From the IMG/VR virus record IMGVR_UViG_3300020438_000063, positions 1 through 48,763 of that record: DNA of 48,763 bases. One strand, given 5' to 3'. The notes under the pieces were generated by a model. That model was given only the letters and a program-made list of their open reading frames with translations. It was not told the DNA's origin and did no database searches. A program made the position numbers and the translations under genes. Shown here piece by piece: positions 17,745-37,693 of this stretch. How positions within the stretch are numbered: position 1 is the stretch's first letter; each line of letters opens with the position of its first letter. This stretch comes from a virus.

Positions 17745-18215
17745 ATGTTTTGGAATAAAGAATCTAAAGAAATTAATATAGAACAACTAAAAGAAACACT
17801 CAAAGTAGATGAAGGTGTAGTATATAAAATATACAAAGATCACCTGGGTTATCCTACATTTGGAATAGGACATTTAGTTATTAAAGAAGACAAGGAATTC
17901 GGTAAAGATATTGGCACTGAAATTTCAGAGGATCGTGTAAACGAATGCTTTGAATCAGATGTACAATCTGTAATCGATGATTGTAAAAAACTGCATGATG
18001 GTTGGGATGGTTATCCTCAAGAGGCTAAACAAATAATCGCAAACATGATGTTTAATATGGGACTTACGCGCTTGAGTAAATTTAAGAACCACAATGCAGC
18101 GCTGCAAAGTGGGGATTGGAAGGAGGCTGCCAAAGAAGGCAGAGATTCAAAATGGCACAAGCAAGTGACAAACAGAGCCGAGAGGCTAATGAAGAGACTC
18201 GAGGAGATCAAATAA
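17745..18215 (+). CDS. T4-type lysozyme (endolysin, GH24)
   Basis: A 156-residue muramidase close in size to T4 gpe (164). The catalytic triad is in place: E23 in VDEGVVYKIY, D32 in KDHLGYPTFGIGHL and T38 in the same block. The C-terminal helix pair holds MMFNMGLTRLSKFKNHNAAL. It has no signal peptide, so release would need a holin. Candidates are the small membrane proteins at 18.3-20.4 kb. The spanin-like pair lies 14 kb away. It is preceded by a late promoter. Confidence 0.95.
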   Translation: MFWNKESKEINIEQLKETLKVDEGVVYKIYKDHLGYPTFGIGHLVIKEDKEFGKDIGTEISEDRVNECFESDVQSVIDDCKKLHDGWDGYPQEAKQIIANMMFNMGLTRLSKFKNHNAALQSGDWKEAAKEGRDSKWHKQVTNRAERLMKRLEEIK

Positions 18216-18638: not shown

Positions 18639-18809
18639 ATGAAACATATGATCAAATGGCTGAAAATCTCAGCCGCAATCAACGTGTATCTATCAATCAT
18701 ACTTACTTTTGTTTTAGTAGCATTAATGATTGATATTGGTTTGGATTCTTATTGGCATTCAAATGATTTCATGGAACAATTCTTGTTACAAAAGAATGAT
18801 TCTAAGTAA
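18639..18809 (+). CDS. small membrane protein
   Basis: A 56-residue ORF from ATG 18639 (a second ATG is at 18648) with a basic N-terminus and one hydrophobic segment (INVYLSIILTFVLVALMIDI). It overlaps the next start by 14 nt. It could be holin-related given the lysozyme nearby, but size and position are the only support. Confidence 0.5.
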   Translation: MKHMIKWLKISAAINVYLSIILTFVLVALMIDIGLDSYWHSNDFMEQFLLQKNDSK

Positions 18810-19041
18810 ATACACAAAAACAATTCAATTACATGTAGGTCTTATTACAGGCCTTCATGTTATTGTCTTATCAATTTTATCATACCCATTTTTCATGTTA
18901 GTCTGTGCAATATTTTGTACTTTAATAGGATTAAAATGTCAATACGAGTGGGTAACTATTATGGAAGAGCATGAGAATGATTATCATCTTATTATAAATA
19001 ATAGTAGGGATAGTATGGCAGATGGTCTACTATCAAAATAA
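18796..19041 (+). CDS. two-span membrane protein, holin candidate
   Basis: An 81-residue protein from ATG 18796; the longer in-frame reading from 18730 lies inside the previous gene. Two hydrophobic segments (residues about 12-31 and 33-48: LITGLHVIVLSILSYPFF and MLVCAIFCTLIGL) precede a polar tail. Two-span proteins of this size beside an endolysin are often holins. No sequence family is recognised. Confidence 0.5.
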   Translation: MILSKYTKTIQLHVGLITGLHVIVLSILSYPFFMLVCAIFCTLIGLKCQYEWVTIMEEHENDYHLIINNSRDSMADGLLSK

Positions 19042-19058
19042 AAGCAATGGAGAATATA

Positions 19059-19364
19059 ATGCAAAATTTATTTACTCTGTTCGTCGGATTAGTTCTTATT
19101 ACGAACTGTGCTTCAATTGGAAGCGTCGTAGAAGGAACCAAGGAGTTTACAACTGGAGTTGTTGACGGTGCTGTAAAAGGTACTTCAACTGTTATTTCAG
19201 CTGTAGCTTCGGATGTAGTATCCACTGGTGAATTCGTTGTTGAAACAGCTGTTGATGTAGGTAAAACTGCAGTCAATACTGGTACTGGAGTTGTTCAAAA
19301 AGCAGCTAACAGGATCGACGAAGAAACTGACAAACTACAAACTCCTCAACCTGAGGGAAAGTAG
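19059..19364 (+). CDS. putative lipoprotein, zero-frame product
   Basis: A 101-residue protein from ATG 19059, with GGAGA at 19051-19055; an ATG at 19047 is also in frame. The hydrophobic N-terminus ends in LITNCASIG, a lipobox-like site with an atypical Asn before the Cys. The mature part is Val/Thr/Gly-rich with repeating VVxGxVKGTSTVISAVAS-like pieces. The gene ends GAG GGA AAG TAG, which contains the slippery heptamer GGGAAAG immediately before the stop, followed by a stem-loop. A longer -1 frameshift product is therefore likely. Confidence 0.65.
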   Translation: MQNLFTLFVGLVLITNCASIGSVVEGTKEFTTGVVDGAVKGTSTVISAVASDVVSTGEFVVETAVDVGKTAVNTGTGVVQKAANRIDEETDKLQTPQPEGK

Positions 19365-19420
19365 CTTGGTCTCTCTTTCCACAATATCCTAAACAACAAA
19401 AGGATATCGAAAAAGAGAGA
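19355..19420 (+). promoter_or_regulatory. -1 ribosomal frameshift signal
   Basis: Slippery heptamer G GGA AAG at 19355-19361 in the zero frame, the same heptamer used by the phage lambda G/GT switch. After an 8-nt spacer comes a nested stem: 19370-19378 pairs with 19412-19420 (9 bp), then ATATCCT 19384-19390 pairs with AGGATAT 19401-19407 (7 bp) around a 10-nt loop. The stop TAG is inside the spacer. Confidence 0.7.
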
Positions 19421-19513
19421 GTAGTAGTTGGAGAAGCAACTAATGATATAACAGTTATCATAAAAATTGTGAAACGCTACTGTACGCAATATCCGGAAGA
19501 GTGCGAACAATAA
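19361..19513 (+). CDS. -1 frameshift extension of the lipoprotein gene
   Basis: After a -1 slip on GGGAAAG (19355-19361), translation continues for 50 codons to TAA 19511-19513. The extension starts VAWSLFPQYPKQQKDIEKER and ends IKIVKRYCTQYPEECEQ, with two Cys that could pair. It has no in-frame start codon with a ribosome site near its beginning, so an independent gene is unlikely. The full fusion would have 151 residues. A sequencing indel is the alternative explanation. Confidence 0.6.
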   Translation, partial: VAWSLFPQYPKQQKDIEKERVVVGEATNDITVIIKIVKRYCTQYPEECEQ

Positions 19514-19516
19514 ACT

Positions 19517-19543
19517 AAAGGGATCTTTTAGGTCCCTTTTTTT
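19517..19543 (+). terminator. Rho-independent terminator
   Basis: AAAGGGA pairs with TCCCTTT around a short loop and runs into a seven-T tract (19537-19543). It ends the lysozyme/lipoprotein transcript, immediately after the frameshift ORF stop, and precedes a late promoter. Confidence 0.85.
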
Positions 19544-20155: not shown

Positions 20156-20416
20156 ATGGATATTGCGCAATTAATTGCCGATTTTGGCTTTCCAACAGTA
20201 ATGGTTGTAGGTTTAGGCTATTTTGTTTACTTTGTATATAACTTTATTCAAGAACATCTAGATCCAGCAACAGAAAAAATGCATTTTCAATTAATTCGAG
20301 TCATTGATCAGATGAGAATGTTAGATCAAGACCTTATAAGATTACAACAAAAAGTAGACGTGGTATTGGAATACAGAGAAAATGAAAAGAAAAAGAGTAG
20401 ACAAAATGAAGAGTAA
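20156..20416 (+). CDS. single-span membrane protein, paralogue-like
   Basis: An 86-residue protein with one N-terminal span (LIADFGFPTVMVVGLGYFVY) followed by a helix (MLDQDLIRLQQKVDVVLEYR). The GFP-x2-M/V-x-G span is like YvrJ-type small membrane proteins. It lies one base after the previous gene and overlaps csgF by 11 nt, so these two small proteins are co-expressed with the curli-type genes. Confidence 0.6.
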   Translation: MDIAQLIADFGFPTVMVVGLGYFVYFVYNFIQEHLDPATEKMHFQLIRVIDQMRMLDQDLIRLQQKVDVVLEYRENEKKKSRQNEE

Positions 20417-20924
20417 CGCTGAATTATTAACACTTATTAGCGTCTTCGTCGTATCAATTATGGCTATTACTCCTGCTAACGCCACAGAAATTGTACACAA
20501 GTTTAAAAATCCTTCCTTTAGTGGACAAGGTACAGCATCTCATTATCTTACAGTAGAAAACCAAGAGTTCTCTCGTAAGAAATCAATAGAAGAAGCATTA
20601 GCTGCAGCAGAAAAAGCAGCACAAAGAGAAGCTGATAATACGACATTAGCAAAATTCATTCGTAACTTAGAATCAAGAATATATGCTCAAATGTCGAAAC
20701 AACTTGTAGAAAGTATGTTTCAAAATGATAATGCTGTAAGATTTGGATCTTTTACATTAGAAGGTTCAATAGTAACATATGAAGTGATAACCAATGCAGA
20801 TGGTTCAGAATTTATTAAAATGACTATAGTAGATACCGACGGTACGGAAACAATAATTGAAATCCCAATCGGTAGTGGATATTTCGGGAGCGACTATGGT
20901 ACGACACCACCTGACGGCGGCTAG
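20406..20924 (+). CDS. csgF: curli assembly factor CsgF-like
   Basis: A 172-residue exported protein from ATG 20406 (20382 is an in-frame alternative). A signal peptide is followed by VHKFKNPSFSGQG, the conserved CsgF N-terminus that binds inside the CsgG pore. The C-terminal region (FGSFTLEGSIVTYEVITNAD, then TETIIEIPI) is the second CsgF block. In E. coli CsgF (138 aa) couples curlin secretion to nucleation at the cell surface. The Lys/Ala-rich helix of residues 55-105 is longer than usual. csgG follows with a 29-nt overlap. Confidence 0.88.
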   Translation: MKSNAELLTLISVFVVSIMAITPANATEIVHKFKNPSFSGQGTASHYLTVENQEFSRKKSIEEALAAAEKAAQREADNTTLAKFIRNLESRIYAQMSKQLVESMFQNDNAVRFGSFTLEGSIVTYEVITNADGSEFIKMTIVDTDGTETIIEIPIGSGYFGSDYGTTPPDGG

Positions 20925-21819
20925 TTTAGCAGTCATTATATTACTGTCTAGCTGTGCTCAAATACCAAGATACACAGAAGATCCGACTATCTGTAATCCA
21001 GATATGTGGGGTGATCAATATAATCATAATGTAGTTGAATGGGTTAAAGCAAGCGGTAGAGTATTTAAAAAAGCCATGCCATACATCTGCGTTGATGTAC
21101 CTGAAATTGTTAATATGCCGTCATACTTTCAATTATTAGATATACCACCAGCTGATAAAAAACCAGTTGTAGCAGTTTATAAATTCCAAGACCTAACAGG
21201 ACAAAGAAAAGCTCTTGATGGTATTGCCTCATTTAGTACTGCAGTAACACAAGGTGCTGATGCTATGTTAATTGATGCATTAAAGAGCGCAGGTGGAGGA
21301 ACTTGGTTCCGCGTGGTAGAGCGACAAGGATTAGACCACCTTGTACGAGAAAGACAAATTATACGAAGTGCACGCCAAGATATTGCAAAGGCAAAAGGCG
21401 AAGACGAAGCACAAGGAATACAACCAATGTTATTTGCTGGAATGATTATAGAAGGCGGTATTATTGGTTACGATACTAACATCTTATCTGGTGGACGAGG
21501 CGCACGGACTCTGGGTATAGGTGCAAGTAGACAATATCGTAAAGATGTTGTCACAATCTCTATAAGAGCTGTTTCAGTTCTGACTGGAGAGGTTTTATTA
21601 AACGTCCAAAGTAAGAAGACTATCCTATCTTACGGCAGTGGAGGAGACGTATTTAGGTTCATAGAACAAGGTACGCAATTAATAGAGTATGAGGACGGAG
21701 TGGGTAAAAATGAGTCAGTGACATATGCAGTACGATCAGCTATTGAAGCAGGAGTACTAGAATTAATCAACCAAGGACATGATAGAGGTTTTTGGGTTAT
21801 AAAAGGAAAAGAAAAATGA
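20896..21819 (+). CDS. csgG: curli secretion channel CsgG-like lipoprotein
   Basis: A 307-residue lipoprotein from ATG 20896, with GGGAG upstream; an in-frame TTG at 20857 is inside csgF. The lipobox is LLSSCAQIPR. The CsgG core is clear: KPVVAVYKFQDLTGQRK, then WFRVVERQGLDHLVRERQII, the pore-loop region FAGMIIEGGIIGYDTNILSG, and YRKDVVTISIRAVSVLTGEV. CsgG forms a nonameric outer-membrane pore for unfolded curlin. An additional N-terminal 50 residues (with CNPDMWGDQYNHNVVEW) are not in E. coli CsgG. I recall csgGF pairs reported in some SAR11 phages, so the pair itself is not new. Confidence 0.94.
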   Translation: MVRHHLTAASLAVIILLSSCAQIPRYTEDPTICNPDMWGDQYNHNVVEWVKASGRVFKKAMPYICVDVPEIVNMPSYFQLLDIPPADKKPVVAVYKFQDLTGQRKALDGIASFSTAVTQGADAMLIDALKSAGGGTWFRVVERQGLDHLVRERQIIRSARQDIAKAKGEDEAQGIQPMLFAGMIIEGGIIGYDTNILSGGRGARTLGIGASRQYRKDVVTISIRAVSVLTGEVLLNVQSKKTILSYGSGGDVFRFIEQGTQLIEYEDGVGKNESVTYAVRSAIEAGVLELINQGHDRGFWVIKGKEK

Positions 21820-22541
21820 TAAAATATATATTAGGCCTAAGCTTATTTTTCAGTTCTTTGACTTTTGCACAAGCATCTGATGATAATGAAATTAATATTA
21901 CACAAGTTGGTGATACATTAACTTTGTATATTGACCAAGTAGGATATGGTAACAAGATTGGACTAGATAACTTTAGTTCATCTTCGTCTGCTTCTCCAAT
22001 TACTGGTTCTTCATTAACTTTCAATATCGATCAGTTAGGTAACGAGAACTTACTCTTTGGTAAGGTCACAGCAGACTCATCATCATACACTTTAGAGTGG
22101 AATGGCGATAGTAATGTTTGGGACTGGATGATAGGACAATCTGGTTCATCAGATAGTTCAAATTTTCTGGTTGATATTACTGGAGATTCAAATACAATGG
22201 ATTTGGATCAAGGTTCTTTAGCTAGTGCAGAAAGATTAGACTTTGACTTAACAGTGTTAGGTAGTTCAAATGTATTTGATGTTGATGTAGAAACTGATGA
22301 TGTCACATGGAATTTTGACATTACTGGTAGTACAAATAATATTAATACTTTACAAAAAGATGGATTCTATCAAGAGATTAATTTTACTCTTGACGGTTCT
22401 GGAGCCGATGTAGACATTAACCAATTATCTGGTACATGTCCTACTGGCATTTCAGCTTGTAAAGGTATTATCACACTTGATGTAGATAGTGAAAATGCAA
22501 CAATTCAAATCAATCAAAAAGATACAGCTGGCGATAGTTAA
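21816..22541 (+). CDS. curlin-repeat protein (CsgA/CsgB-like)
   Basis: A 241-residue secreted protein from ATG 21816 (ATGA on the csgG stop). The signal peptide runs to about residue 21 (SLFFSSLTFAQA). The mature part has degenerate curlin repeats: EINITQVGDTLTLYIDQVGY, LTFNIDQLGNEN, SNTMDLDQGS and ENATIQINQ. Asn and Gln at repeat ladders are the hallmark of curli amyloid, which CsgG secretes. The protein is unusually Asp/Ser-rich. One Cys pair (CPTGISAC) is near the C-terminus. It is probably the CsgG/CsgF substrate, by context. Confidence 0.8.
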   Translation: MIKYILGLSLFFSSLTFAQASDDNEINITQVGDTLTLYIDQVGYGNKIGLDNFSSSSSASPITGSSLTFNIDQLGNENLLFGKVTADSSSYTLEWNGDSNVWDWMIGQSGSSDSSNFLVDITGDSNTMDLDQGSLASAERLDFDLTVLGSSNVFDVDVETDDVTWNFDITGSTNNINTLQKDGFYQEINFTLDGSGADVDINQLSGTCPTGISACKGIITLDVDSENATIQINQKDTAGDS

Positions 22542-23649
22542 TTTTTTACTCATAGGGTCCGTTTCGGCGGACTCTATCGGGTCTATAATAGAACAATCAG
22601 GTTCTGCTCAACTCAAAAGACAACAAGAAGAAATAATAATTACAGAAGAGTCTCTGCCTGAGATCGAATTGAATGATGTGGCAGAAACAGCGAATGGTAA
22701 ACTTAAAATAAAGTTTTTAGATAATGCTCAATTAGATATTAAAGAACATAGTGAAGTATTAATTGATGAGATCTATTACGATCCTGATCCTTCACTCTCT
22801 AAAATGTCAATGAAATTTACAATGGGAACAGCAAGATTTGCTTCAGGTTCTCTTGGATTAGTAAATAAAGCAAACATTGATATACAAACACCAACAGCCA
22901 CGATTGGTATTCGTGGTACAGATTTCACTACAACAATTGATGAACTTGGTAGAAGTTTAATTATGTTATTGCCAGATGCGAATGGTGATCCATCTGGAGA
23001 GATTACAGTAACAAATGAAGCTGGAGTTATTACTCTGAATCAAGCGTATCAAGCAACAATGGTACAAAGTTTAAATACAATGCCAACAAAGCCAGTTACG
23101 ATTGGTGGTATTACTCCATCGATGATTGATAACATGTTTATCGTGAATCCACCAACAGAAGTAAAACAAGCCATACAAGACCAAGTGGATAATGATTTAA
23201 ATAAAGATCAAGGAATATTAGATGTTGATTTTTTAGAGTATAATGAATTGGATAAAACCATAGATGATTATTACGAAGAGGATAAAGACTATAATCGTAT
23301 TGATGTCGACTTTTTAGCAGGCGAATTCCTACCAGATTTGTTAGATGTGGTAGAAGAATTAGTAAAAACCAAAAGGGTTCTTGGAGATAAACAAGCTTCA
23401 TCAAGCTCTGGTGGATCAGCTGGGTTTAAACTTGAGGGTGCAACACTTGGCTTAAATAAAGATAGCCAATATAATGTATTCCTTGAAGATGGCGGTATTA
23501 TATTCTATCGAGATGTAAATGGTATTATTAATCTTAAGTTCGAAGCAGGAGCTGAGGTAACACTTAATACTATTGTTGATGGATATGAAGGAACAATACG
23601 AATGAACGGTGGTGATGATATAAATATATACATAAGGCAGGTAAATTAA
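22495..23649 (+). CDS. FecR-domain periplasmic protein
   Basis: A 384-residue exported protein; ATG 22495 overlaps the end of the curlin-like gene in another frame, and GTG 22489 is an alternative. The signal peptide ends near FLLIGSVSADS. The FecR domain covers about residues 30-190: GKLKIKFLDNAQLDIKEHSE, MGTARFASG and the family hallmark IQTPTATIGIRGTDF. The last 170 residues are acidic with a Ser/Gly linker (SSSSGGSAG) and a beta-rich end. FecR domains sense envelope or ligand states, and stand-alone versions often neighbour CHASE2 cyclases in bacteria; one follows here at 25.3 kb. Confidence 0.85.
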   Translation: MQQFKSIKKIQLAIVNFLLIGSVSADSIGSIIEQSGSAQLKRQQEEIIITEESLPEIELNDVAETANGKLKIKFLDNAQLDIKEHSEVLIDEIYYDPDPSLSKMSMKFTMGTARFASGSLGLVNKANIDIQTPTATIGIRGTDFTTTIDELGRSLIMLLPDANGDPSGEITVTNEAGVITLNQAYQATMVQSLNTMPTKPVTIGGITPSMIDNMFIVNPPTEVKQAIQDQVDNDLNKDQGILDVDFLEYNELDKTIDDYYEEDKDYNRIDVDFLAGEFLPDLLDVVEELVKTKRVLGDKQASSSSGGSAGFKLEGATLGLNKDSQYNVFLEDGGIIFYRDVNGIINLKFEAGAEVTLNTIVDGYEGTIRMNGGDDINIYIRQVN

Positions 23650-24296
23650 TGAAAACAATAGCATATATATGGCTCATTTCTTTTTGCACTCTTGCATTTG
23701 CAGGAGATAATCATGTGCATATAGAACAGGTCAATGGTGGAGATAACGTCGATATTGAGATCACTCAAATTGGATATGATAACGAAATAAAATTTTCATT
23801 TGATCATCAAAATAATATATTTGATTTAAGCCAAACTGGAAACGGAAATTCTATATCATGGGTTTCATATTGGGGACCAGGCAAAAGTTGGGGTGGTGAT
23901 GTTGATGGCACAAACAATAACGAATCAGTAATTCAACTTAATGGTGCAACTTATGGTCGACATATATGGGGCAATAGTAATGATGTTGATGTATATCAAA
24001 ATGGAACACATACTCATAACTTAGATTTACATGCAAGTTCAGTAGATCATGACCTATGGCAAGAAGGAAGTGGTAGTCATTATAATCATACTTATTTTTA
24101 TGGCTCATCATCTTATTCAGATACGAATATAATGCAAAAAGGAACTGGTTCGCATAACTCTCAAGTAACATTAACGGGTTCATATGCAACTACATTAAAC
24201 GTATTACAACAAGGATCAGTAAATCAAACATATAGTTTAACACAAAACTGCCAAACAAGTAATGGTTGTTCAGTTTCAGTAACACAAGGAAATTAA
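23649..24296 (+). CDS. second curlin-repeat protein
   Basis: A 215-residue secreted protein with a signal peptide (IAYIWLISFCTLAFAG) and curlin-type repeats: NVDIEITQIGYDNEIKFSF, NNIFDLSQTGNGNSI, SVIQLNGAT, NVLQQGSVNQTYSLTQ. It is rich in His, Gly and Ser (THTHNLDLHASSVDHDLW), which differs from its homologue at 21.8 kb. Two Cys lie in CQTSNGCSV at the C-terminus, like the Cys pair of the first one. The two could be major and minor (nucleator) subunits, as with CsgA and CsgB. Confidence 0.8.
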   Translation: MKTIAYIWLISFCTLAFAGDNHVHIEQVNGGDNVDIEITQIGYDNEIKFSFDHQNNIFDLSQTGNGNSISWVSYWGPGKSWGGDVDGTNNNESVIQLNGATYGRHIWGNSNDVDVYQNGTHTHNLDLHASSVDHDLWQEGSGSHYNHTYFYGSSSYSDTNIMQKGTGSHNSQVTLTGSYATTLNVLQQGSVNQTYSLTQNCQTSNGCSVSVTQGN

Positions 24297-24297
24297 C

Positions 24298-24564
24298 ATG
24301 ATAGAATGTCCACCAGAGTTTTACGAATGTCTTACCGAAGAAGAGTACGATGAGATTCTAGAAATCTTCGAAGAGAATGATATGGTTATGCCAGAATCAA
24401 TGGAATCAAGAGGAGACGCAGAAGCTGCAGTGGATTTTGTATGGCAGGTTTTATTCTTGGCACCTTGGGAGCTTGCTTATATAGCATTGCCTATGAGTGT
24501 ATTAGCATTCTACGGACTTTCAATATATACAGTATTTAAAATGATACAAAAGAAATATTCATAA
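24298..24564 (+). CDS. acidic small membrane protein
   Basis: An 88-residue protein. The first 45 residues are acidic with two Cys (ECPPEFYECLTEEEYDEILE). A hydrophobic segment near residues 50-80 (FLAPWELAYIALPMSVLAFY) could cross the membrane once or twice. It lies between the curlin-like and iscU genes, with TAATG coupling to iscU. Function is unknown. Confidence 0.6.
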   Translation: MIECPPEFYECLTEEEYDEILEIFEENDMVMPESMESRGDAEAAVDFVWQVLFLAPWELAYIALPMSVLAFYGLSIYTVFKMIQKKYS

Positions 24565-24986
24565 TGGCATATAGTAAAGAAGTAGTAGACAGATTCGAAT
24601 CAGTATTAGCTAACCCAGCTAAACACTCTGTTGGAAGATTCGATCCAAACGATAAAACAGTTATAACGGGAATGGTCGGCGCTCCAGCTTGTGGCGATGT
24701 CATGAAACTAGATTTAAAGATGAATGGTAACATAATAGAAGACGTTAAGTTTAAAACATACGGCTGTGGTTCAGCAATAGCATCATCAACTCTTTTCGTA
24801 GAGATGTTAAAAGGTAAAACAATAGAAGAAGCTCAAAGTATAAAAGATAAAGATATTGCTGAAGCTTTACAATTACCTGCAATTAAATTACATTGTTCAG
24901 TATTAGCTGAAGATGCAATAAGACAAGCTATTTCAAACTGGAAACCTGATACTATGATCGGGCATAATAATCCACCAAAATCATGA
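24564..24986 (+). CDS. iscU: Fe-S cluster assembly scaffold IscU-like
   Basis: A 140-residue protein with all three cluster cysteines and the conserved Asp: C43 and D45 in VGAPACGDVMKL, C68 in YGCGSAIASS and C111 in KLHCSVLAEDA. LQLPAIKLHC matches the LPPVK chaperone-binding motif with Ala-Ile for Pro-Val. E. coli IscU has 128 residues. It would need host cysteine desulfurase IscS. The C-terminal tail (DTMIGHNNPPKS) contains an IGHNNPP piece, similar to IGHNGGPK in a small ORF at 30.8 kb. ATGA couples it to the carrier gene. Confidence 0.93.
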   Translation: MAYSKEVVDRFESVLANPAKHSVGRFDPNDKTVITGMVGAPACGDVMKLDLKMNGNIIEDVKFKTYGCGSAIASSTLFVEMLKGKTIEEAQSIKDKDIAEALQLPAIKLHCSVLAEDAIRQAISNWKPDTMIGHNNPPKS

Positions 24987-25297
24987 TAGAGATAACAAAT
25001 GAAGCAATTACAAAACTTATACAAAAGACTAAAGGAAAGAGCAATACCATTCGCATTGGCGTCACTGGCGGTGGGTGTGCTGGTTATGAATATATATTTG
25101 ATTATGAATCCACAATACTTGCCGAAGACAATGTGTACAATTTCGGAAAATTCAACATCGTTATTAACAATGAATCATTGCCCTTTTTATCCGATGTCAC
25201 TTTAGACTATATCACTCTTGGTTTAAATGAATCATTCAAAATAATTAATCCGGCTGAAAAATCTGCATGTGGGTGTGGCGTTTCAGTACAATTTTAG
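24983..25297 (+). CDS. A-type Fe-S carrier (IscA/ErpA/HesB-like)
   Basis: A 104-residue protein with the three A-type cysteines C32 (GGGCAGYEYIF) and C96/C98 (SACGCGVSVQF). These carry Fe-S clusters from the scaffold to target enzymes. The fold markers EITNEAITKLI and LDYITLGLNESFKIINP are in place. Paired with iscU by ATGA, it forms a minimal scaffold-carrier module. Whether it is closest to IscA or ErpA cannot be told by eye. Confidence 0.9.
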   Translation: MIEITNEAITKLIQKTKGKSNTIRIGVTGGGCAGYEYIFDYESTILAEDNVYNFGKFNIVINNESLPFLSDVTLDYITLGLNESFKIINPAEKSACGCGVSVQF

Positions 25298-25316
25298 TAT
25301 AACACTGTATAACACT
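25298..25316 (+). repeat. tandem 9-mer TATAACACT x2 before the cyclase
   Basis: TATAACACT occurs at 25298-25306 and again at 25308-25316, directly before ATG 25319. No Shine-Dalgarno is present. It may be a weak promoter (TATAAC as -10) or an operator; no matching -35 is convincing. Confidence 0.4.
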
Positions 25317-25318
25317 TT

Positions 25319-27148
25319 ATGAAATATTTAACAAGCATTTGGACAACAATTATATTGGGTATAACACTTTTAGGTGTAAGAATATCTGATCCTCAGTTAG
25401 TTGAACAGTTTAGGTTAAATATATTCGACCAAGTAATACAATCAATGCCAGTAGAACATTCTAATGATATAGTGTTGTTGAACATATCCGAGTCTTCACT
25501 CGAAGCCTATGGGCAATACCCTTGGCCGCGTCAGAATCACGCAGCAGTGATTTCTGATCTGAGGAACGCAAATGCTGGTATGATTGGGTTCACTATTATG
25601 TTTCCAGAGGCTGACAGGTTTGGCGGTGATGAAGTTTTTGCTTCTTGGATTAATGGTAATGGAATAATACTTGCACAAGACGCTGACGAAAATGGAAGAA
25701 GTTCTAAAGCACCTTATGTAGGGTATGCAACATTTGGTTATTCGGGTGATATACTAGATCTTACTTATCGATATAAAGGATTAGTTACTAACATAGAAGA
25801 GTTAGAGAAACATTCATGGGGAGTAGGATTACTTAATGGTGCGCCAGAAGTAGATAATCAGACGCGTAGGATACCATTAATGTCACAAGTCAATGGGAAT
25901 GTCTACCCATCATTTGCACTAGAAACGGTACGAGCACTACAAAATAAGAAATCGTATACTGTTAAATTAAATGAATCAGGAATAGAATCTATTATACTTA
26001 GACCTTTTATAATACCTACTGATGAAAGAGGAAGTATCTGGTTAAAGTGGAATACACATTTTGATAGCTATGATTATGGAAAGCCTTTACCAGATTTAAA
26101 AGGAAAGACAGTTATAATAGGAGTAACGGCTAAAGGTATATCACCTCAGATTACAACTCCAGCTGGACTTCTATATCCTCATCAATTACAAGCGAATGCT
26201 TTGCAGACTATAATATCTGACTCTCCGATATCTCGTCCTCAATGGACATTTGCTGCTGAGTTGGGAATGATTCTGATTGGGAGTCTGCTGATAGTTCTAG
26301 CTGTTTATTATCTACCGATCTGGATAGGACTTGTGTTCTTCGTCGGTTCCGCTGCTGCCGTATGCTACGCTGTTTATTACGCCTGGTACGAATTTTCTAT
26401 ACTCCTCGATTTATCAGCTTCTCTATTAATATATATACTTTTACTCACCTCATCGAGTTTCAATAACTTTTACAAGCAATTTGTTTTACGACAGCAAATA
26501 AAGAAACAGTTTGGCACATATGTATCTCCTGATCTTGTTAAGCAACTACAAGAAGACCCATCATTACTTAAGCTTGGTGGTGAAAGAAAAGACATGACCT
26601 TTATGTTTATGGATATATGTGGATTTACTCCAATATCAGAACACTATAAGAATAATGACGATCCAGAAGGTCTTGTAGTTCTTATAAATAATTATTTAGA
26701 TACCATGACAAAGATTGTTTTAAAGAATGGTGGAACAATAGATAAATTCATGGGTGATTGCATTATGGCATTCTGGAACGCTCCATTGCCATGCGAAGAT
26801 CATCCACAAAAAGCGATAGATACCGCTAGGGAAATTACAGATGCAGCTGACATACTTATTAAAGAACTCGAAAATCAAGGCTTGCCTAGGATTGATATTG
26901 GCATTGGTATCAACACAGGTACTTGCATCGTTGGAAACATGGGATCCGAAGAGCGGTTTGACTATTCCGTTATTGGCGATGCCGTCAACCTTGGGGCTAG
27001 ACTCGAAGGACAAACTCGCAATTACGATGGGGTTCGAGTGTTGCTGGGCCCAGAAACATATCAACGCAGTAAAGACGGAAGCCTCACTTTTGTTGATTCC
27101 ATCCAAGTTAAAGGAAAGTCAGAAAAGGTGGACATTTACACTTGTTAG
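25319..27148 (+). CDS. CHASE2-domain class III adenylate cyclase
   Basis: A 609-residue membrane enzyme predicted to make cAMP. After an N-terminal span (residues 5-22), a periplasmic CHASE2 sensor covers about 25-295 (DIVLLNISESSLEAYGQYPW; LKGKTVIIGVTA). Three or so spans follow (about 308-385), then the cyclase domain from about 395. Catalytic residues are complete: metal-binding D432 (FMFMDICGF) and D480 (FMGD), adenine-selecting K476 and D548 (FDYSVIGDAVN), and the Asn and Arg of VNLGARLE. The Lys/Asp pair favours adenylate over guanylate cyclase. Neighbours are a FecR protein and curli-type genes, which suggests envelope-sensing. Few phages are known to me with such an enzyme. Confidence 0.93.
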   Translation: MKYLTSIWTTIILGITLLGVRISDPQLVEQFRLNIFDQVIQSMPVEHSNDIVLLNISESSLEAYGQYPWPRQNHAAVISDLRNANAGMIGFTIMFPEADRFGGDEVFASWINGNGIILAQDADENGRSSKAPYVGYATFGYSGDILDLTYRYKGLVTNIEELEKHSWGVGLLNGAPEVDNQTRRIPLMSQVNGNVYPSFALETVRALQNKKSYTVKLNESGIESIILRPFIIPTDERGSIWLKWNTHFDSYDYGKPLPDLKGKTVIIGVTAKGISPQITTPAGLLYPHQLQANALQTIISDSPISRPQWTFAAELGMILIGSLLIVLAVYYLPIWIGLVFFVGSAAAVCYAVYYAWYEFSILLDLSASLLIYILLLTSSSFNNFYKQFVLRQQIKKQFGTYVSPDLVKQLQEDPSLLKLGGERKDMTFMFMDICGFTPISEHYKNNDDPEGLVVLINNYLDTMTKIVLKNGGTIDKFMGDCIMAFWNAPLPCEDHPQKAIDTAREITDAADILIKELENQGLPRIDIGIGINTGTCIVGNMGSEERFDYSVIGDAVNLGARLEGQTRNYDGVRVLLGPETYQRSKDGSLTFVDSIQVKGKSEKVDIYTC

Positions 27149-37504: not shown

Positions 37505-37693
37505 TTATCTCCTATTTTCATTTTTAATTCTTTCATTCTCTTCTTTAATATACTCTTGTAAGAGTGATATATAAATCTCCCTCTCCCACGGTATCATATT
37601 ATCAAGTTCAGTCAAACTATAATTATGGTGTTGCATCATTGCAAAATTAGTCTTATAGTGATTGACTAAACTCTCATGCGAGAGGCCTATGTA
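37505..37693 (-). CDS. -1 frameshift extension of the gp26-like gene
   Basis: After a -1 slip on T7, translation continues for 62 codons: YIGLSHESLVNHYKTNFAMM, then QHHNYSLTELDNMIPWEREI and YISLLQEYIKEENERIK. The block HHNYSLTELDNMIPWEREIY is conserved-type in T4-like phages. An ATG at 37639-37637 could start a 44-residue separate protein, but it has no Shine-Dalgarno, and the frame is open back through the slippery site. I favour a gp26-like fusion of 295 residues. Confidence 0.65.
   Translation of the reverse strand, partial: YIGLSHESLVNHYKTNFAMMQHHNYSLTELDNMIPWEREIYISLLQEYIKEENERIKNENRR

Follow-up and report, generated by a model that had tools for sequence, protein, structure and literature searches.

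A probable programmed -1 ribosomal frameshift in a lipoprotein gene of uncultured marine T4-like phages

The sequence analysed here, referred to as the window, is the 48,763-nt stretch spanning positions 1 to 48,763 of IMG/VR virus record IMGVR_UViG_3300020438_000063. It represents part of a T4-like marine myovirus genome, with genes for a gp32-type SSB, a class Ia ribonucleotide reductase and a baseplate wedge protein. A short lipoprotein gene on its + strand is preceded directly by a small membrane protein gene and, among the other upstream genes, by those for a T4-type lysozyme (17745-18215) and a basic 100-aa protein. On the downstream side, three small genes separate the lipoprotein gene from the CsgF, CsgG, curlin and FecR genes. 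Over 70 % of its length, the CsgG shares 53 % identity with its counterpart in Pelagibacter phage HTVC008M. The region from 20382 to 27148 holds this curli cluster, followed by NifU-like and Fe-S biosynthesis genes and a CHASE2-adenylate cyclase gene; curli clusters are known from pelagiphages, and the iron-sulfur genes are inserted in the window version. The window contains 15 T4-type late-promoter motifs (TATAAATA) on the + strand, several of them just 5' of genes. The features of the locus and its surroundings are listed in Table 1.

Table 1 Features of the window considered in this study
Feature	Position	Strand	Remarks
Small membrane protein gene	18763..19041	+	Directly 5' of the lipoprotein gene; 18763 is the first ATG, start uncertain
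T4-type late-promoter motif TATAAATA	18993..19000	+	54 nt upstream of 19047
GGAG, Shine-Dalgarno-like	19049..19052	+	6 nt 5' of ATG 19059; read from sequence
Zero-frame lipoprotein ORF	19059..19364	+	101 aa, stop TAG 19362-19364
TGA in -1 frame	19352..19354	+	Touches the 5' side of the heptamer; likewise closed in 32/82 loci
Slippery heptamer G GGA AAG	19355..19361	+	In phase; A AAA AAG instead in 65/82 loci
Extension in -1 frame	19355..19513	+	GK plus 50 residues, C-terminal end KRYCTQYPEECEQ, stop TAA 19511-19513
Nested stem, putatively stimulatory	19370..19420	+	9 bp plus 7 bp
Hairpin resembling an intrinsic terminator	19517..19539	+	3' of the extension
Phage curli cluster	20382..23649	+	Neighbouring context, outside the frameshift itself; Pfam matches
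CsgF gene	20382-20924	+	Pfam
CsgG gene	20857-21819	+	Pfam
Curlin repeat protein gene	21792-22541	+	Pfam
FecR gene	22489-23649	+	Pfam
T4 gene 26 homologue (PF12322)	38388-37687, -1 frame to about 37500	-	Second -1 frameshift candidate
Late-promoter motifs TATAAATA	1198, 2892, 8118, 10905, 14833, 14845, 16013, 17713, 18993, 19565, 23619, 26683, 34100, 40091, 44603	+

The zero-frame product, read from the sequence, begins with MQNLFTLFVGLVLITNC followed by ASIG and ends in QPEGK. It has an N-terminal signal peptide and a lipobox cysteine and is predicted to be lipidated as bacterial lipoproteins are. The lipobox cysteine, Cys-17, is invariant in the family described below, and this backs the label of lipoprotein given in a first-pass annotation made from the window alone. 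The preceding residues vary among relatives (LPSC, FVGC, AQGC), and the LITN-C of the window clade is slightly atypical. The motif TATAAATA stands ahead of the lipoprotein gene in all of the window clade and in 16 of 82 loci, versus 1.2 % of random 200-nt stretches. AlphaFold modelled the lipoprotein piece alone as helical with low confidence (mean pLDDT 53), and in the tail piece alone, that is, the extension in the -1 frame, it was confident of the C-terminal helix only.

The zero frame closes with GAG GGA AAG TAG, and the heptamer G GGA AAG consists of the preceding G and the last sense codons, GGA and AAG, with the TAG adjoining. A spacer of 8 nt (19362-19369) leads to a nested stem in which the 9-bp arms TCTCTCTTT (19370-19378) and AAAGAGAGA (19412-19420) are exact complements, as are the 7-bp arms ATATCCT (19384-19390) and AGGATAT (19401-19407). 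The RNA from 19362 to 19440 folds at -21.4 kcal/mol (z = -3.79), and 1 of 200 shuffles was equally good. From the heptamer, the -1 frame reads GK and then VAWSLFPQYPKQQKDIEKERVVVGEATNDITVIIKIVKRYCTQYPEECEQ. The first-pass annotation had proposed a frameshift from these elements, and on re-reading, its GGGAAAG, 8-nt spacer, both stems and -1 frame ending at 19513 were all in place, as was a terminator-like hairpin where it had named a terminator; its product lengths of 101 and 151 residues agree with those computed from the Shine-Dalgarno-preceded ATG at 19059. The present analysis adds the TGA at 19352-19354, which shuts the -1 frame right before the heptamer, so that the tail can be entered only by a shift at the heptamer.

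Long -1 frames past stop codons are common in the window, being open for at least 50 codons in 22 of its 77 ORFs of at least 80 aa, so an argument from chance within this single sequence is weak and was not used as the main test. A phased XXXYYYZ near the stop combined with a -1 extension of at least 31 codons is found in only two window ORFs of at least 60 aa, namely the lipoprotein gene (19059-19364) and the gene 26 homologue ending at 37687. The decisive evidence for the putative lipoprotein frameshift is comparative.

Relatives were sought in IMG/VR with the zero-frame protein and its profiles and, separately, with tail-only profiles. After duplicates had been collapsed and four unrelated rows dropped, the family set comprised 86 distinct loci including the window; these were gathered by similarity and the lipobox pattern, and divergent tail-less members may be under-sampled. 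The 86 loci are related, and counts drawn from them are not independent events. In 82 of the 86, a phased heptamer is separated from the zero-frame stop by 0-3 nt, and each of these has a -1 tail of 31-64 residues past the heptamer. The heptamer is AAAAAAG in 65 loci, GGGAAAG in 16 and GGGAAAC in one, alternating between the first two among relatives while its phase and position stay constant. The conservation of the slippery site that the first-pass annotation had put forward as a check is thus borne out. The stretch in which the shift could happen has a median length of 25 nt across the 82 loci, and the -1 frame is closed by a stop adjoining the heptamer in 32 of them, the window included. 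The tail-only search again found tails in the -1 frame relative to a lipoprotein ORF, and the association of lipoprotein and tail is therefore independent of the search route.

The tail ends in the motif Y-C-x2-(N/Y/F)-P-x2-C, of which Y, C, P and C are invariant among 21 diverse tails that are only 18-41 % identical to that of the window; slip site and -1-frame protein are kept even in members about one-third identical to the window protein. Substitutions in the tail, counted over 28 disjoint pairs at codon positions 3, 1 and 2 of the -1 frame, numbered 132, 68 and 35, and those in the zero-frame ORF (21 pairs) numbered 231, 86 and 33. The third-position bias in both indicates that both are read as protein and that the -1 tail is under purifying selection at the codon level, in keeping with the conservation of the -1-frame protein that had been expected of a genuine frameshift. 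An indel of sequencing or assembly, or a decaying gene, would make the two parts a single ORF or the tail dead sequence. Contigs from metagenomes may contain indels, and errors often show as a frame break close to the end of a gene, but 82 distinct loci, drawn from many metagenomes, share this break and have it at a slippery heptamer in every case, which excludes an indel, and the selection on the tail speaks against decay. Continuous zero-frame homologues, which would have pointed to such an error, were looked for, and no fusion of lipoprotein and tail in one frame was found among the 86 IMG/VR loci. We regard this explanation as having practically no chance of being correct.

Both GGGAAAG and AAAAAAG are known -1 slip sites. 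Slippage of RNA polymerase on the A run, yielding mRNAs that join both parts in one frame, might be considered for the 65 of 82 loci with AAAAAAG, which often lies within a run of seven A. It would not account for the 17 loci, the window included, that have GGGAAAG or GGGAAAC and no long homopolymer, and stem and phase suit ribosomal slippage. Because GGGAAAG replaces AAAAAAG within the family, transcriptional slippage is very unlikely. Equally improbable is that the tail is a separate small gene, expressed by reinitiation or from its own start in or just after the lipoprotein gene. A possible start codon exists in the tail frame in 11 of 82 loci, six of them with a Shine-Dalgarno-like sequence, whereas the other 71 have no start ahead of the conserved part, which makes separate initiation unlikely; the sole start-like codon of the window tail frame is a GTG three codons ahead of the Tyr-Cys. 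A separate start would also leave the conserved, phased heptamer unexplained.

Four of the 86 loci have no -1 tail, and all four also lack the heptamer (both present 82, both absent 4; Fisher p = 5e-7, a value that is optimistic because the loci are related). In L170 and L185, the lipoprotein ends EEEKQEK-TAA with another gene directly 3', and there is neither heptamer nor -1 tail. L215 (448-672) and L218 (2838-3062) were recovered from two metagenomes and have the tail in the +1 frame with respect to the lipoprotein; the run ahead of the stop is GAAAAGAAG in place of GAAAAAAAG, and the heptamer is lost. An upstream ATG is present in the tail's frame in both, a point in favour of a separate start in these two. 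Since these two retain the tail, in a different frame and with no heptamer, the tail can be reached by another route there, and a tail with its own ATG start is possibly an escape from frameshifting.

Across the family, folding of the 70-nt regions downstream of the heptamer is on average more stable than that of shuffles (61 regions; mean z -1.95). An 11-bp stem is shared by ten A AAA AAG loci in which a single codon separates the heptamer from the stop, and it begins 6 nt 3' of the heptamer; 98 % of its cells are paired, and its covariation score was reached by none of 500 shuffles and by no slid version of the structure. That test leans towards the structure, which was derived from the same ten sequences, and changes on both sides occur in only 2 of 11 pairs. 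The FPQKC subgroup has little downstream structure, weaker than that of the others. Of the stem covariation named as a check in the first-pass annotation, the stem itself is thus present and covaries in one subgroup, while the FPQKC loci are weakly structured. The heptamer A AAA AAG alone is a very slippery site, as dnaX and IS elements show.

The locus thus has the features of programmed -1 frameshifting, namely a phased X XXY YYZ before the stop in the window and 81 relatives, a conserved -1-frame protein, and downstream structure at 5-9 nt (window z = -3.79) that is weak in the FPQKC subgroup. Site, phase, conservation, selection on both frames and stem are read from the sequence and its comparison, and on these grounds we hold with high confidence that the lipoprotein gene carries a programmed -1 ribosomal frameshift site, a confidence that covers the frameshift and not the function. 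The slippage step, the two products of 101 and 151 residues and their ratio are modelled on established frameshifting biology. The majority of ribosomes would translate the signal peptide and lipoprotein and terminate at the TAG at 19362, and some would pause at G GGA AAG upon meeting the stem 8 nt 3' of it. Both tRNAs would then slip one base back, from GGA AAG to GGG AAA, by canonical tandem slippage, and translation in the -1 frame would add 50 residues ending in a helix and a Cys-x6-Cys turn. In the infected cell, one gene would in this way supply two forms at a set ratio, one short and lipidated and the other C-extended. The long form is invisible to standard gene callers.

Phage lambda G/GT slips at GGGAAAG, and the -1 frameshifts of phage tail genes are reportedly conserved (Xu, Hendrix and Duda 2004). 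To our knowledge, well-documented frameshifting in tailed phages is mostly in tail-chaperone genes. The present gene resembles lambda G/GT in that slippage by -1 close to the 3' end of a short reading frame would give a short and a C-extended protein from one gene, but it differs in encoding an exported lipoprotein unrelated to tail chaperones, in lying away from the tape-measure gene and in having a downstream stem. That it is itself a tail-assembly chaperone gene of the lambda type, whose place is between the genes for the major tail protein and the tape measure, was ruled out, given its neighbours (lysozyme, small membrane protein, curli), its lipobox and the lack of any chaperone profile match. 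The combination of A AAA AAG with a downstream stem is the -1 site of E. coli dnaX and of IS elements, and most relatives share this heptamer, with stems about 6-8 nt downstream, although genes and products are other ones.

Searches for the gene outside the IMG/VR family gave no relatives. Among 50,697 phage records, none was found by megablast of the region or by tblastn with five divergent fused proteins, the only matches, to Vibrio phages, having E values of 0.7 or more, and the bacterial and archaeal genome collection contained no lipoprotein relatives. Profile searches of PHROGs, Pfam, NCBIfam and PDB gave no meaningful match. Scans of two cultured curli phages, HTVC008M over its whole record and Melnitz over 49 kb, showed neither the lipoprotein nor the tail motif. 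In a text search, the papers on pelagiphage curli (PMC7029224, PMC9599517, PMC9004378) contained neither 'lipoprotein' nor 'frameshift', the former word was also absent from the PRFect paper and from the searched part of a recoding review, and the open-access literature yielded nothing relevant on frameshifting in lipoprotein genes of phages or in pelagiphages. The class of mechanism is known and, within the reach of these searches, the gene family and kind of protein are new for it. The list of phage frameshift genes would thereby extend past tail-building genes to a large and diverse family of uncultured marine T4-like phages, and frame-aware searches of virus collections can reveal new products.

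In the window and in many relatives, the lipoprotein gene has genes for CsgF, CsgG, curlin repeats, FecR and adenylate cyclase as neighbours, as found in the curli (type VIII secretion) clusters of pelagimyophages (PMC7029224, PMC9599517, PMC9004378). In 49 of 86 loci, a curli-cluster gene or the CHASE2 cyclase gene is no more than six genes away, commonly with the curlin and FecR genes on the upstream side and the cyclase gene on the other. No such gene is that close in any of the 24 FPQKC loci; these adjoin genes that resemble, by eye, those for a nuclease, a RecA-like protein and a helicase. Directly upstream, the most frequent neighbour is a small membrane protein family (cluster 1; 39 loci), of which that of the window is a remote relative (profile E 6e-6). 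The link to curli is one of gene proximity, Csg profiles giving no match for the lipoprotein or the fused protein. Speculatively, the extension may be a periplasmic module by which a minority of the anchored subunits dock to a partner, which in many such phages might belong to the phage curli channel or be the upstream small membrane protein. A Cys-loop on a fraction of anchored subunits suggests, as a guess, a docking or nucleating role in ratio-dependent assembly, like that of gpGT beside gpG in lambda (PMC5009743). It is a tentative idea, with perhaps a minor share of the probability, that the ratio of short and Cys-tailed forms set by frameshifting serves the phage curli channel (CsgG/CsgF, FecR, cyclase) as a structural or gating component. 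If true, programmed frameshifting would be at work in a phage envelope or secretion module; the locus in any case offers a concrete, testable new gene beside a puzzling phage curli cluster.

The frameshifted pair could instead be a lysis component, an o-spanin-like lipoprotein, rather than part of a curli module. The nearby T4-type lysozyme gene, the adjoining small membrane protein gene and, in the window, the late-promoter motif would fit; the lipoprotein, however, is not proline-rich, spanin profiles gave no match and the lysozyme is not a constant neighbour among relatives, and we consider this rather unlikely. The upstream membrane protein looks, by eye, as if it had two transmembrane segments, and two-component spanins (Rz/Rz1) pair a short, proline-rich lipoprotein of the outer membrane with an inner-membrane protein that has one such segment and a coiled coil. 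We are likewise doubtful of a role in exclusion, in which the lipoprotein would keep other phages out of the infected cell and the extended form would be its active or regulatory version. Small phage lipoproteins can do so, as Ltp of TP-J34 does (PMC3952083), and the phage curli cluster itself has been proposed to limit superinfection (PMC9599517), but no sequence link to known exclusion lipoproteins was found, and a late function would match the late-promoter motif of the window clade better than early exclusion would.

The second candidate in the window, the gene 26 homologue, ends AGT TTT TTT ACA TAG, and its -1 frame runs on for another 61 residues to encode a protein resembling gp51, the baseplate hub assembly catalyst. 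This gene 26/51 arrangement, with TTTTTTT or TTTTTTC 0-3 nt before the stop, occurs in HTVC008M, Melnitz, S-CAM22, P-RSM4, S-CAM1, S-CRM01, Aeromonas P19 and Vibrio PVA8, a set that includes cultured cyanophages and T4-like phages of Aeromonas and Vibrio, and conserved residues are located 5' of the annotated gp51 start. A literature search found no earlier description of a gene 26/51 frameshift, which may be a T4-type counterpart of lambda G/GT. In Kuttervirus Phi_10 (Ackermannviridae; L261, about 1500-1700), the standard XXXYYYZ heptamer is absent before the gene 26 stop, and the gene 26 homologue is followed by an open -1 frame with the gp51-like motif ESMPWHLDLL.
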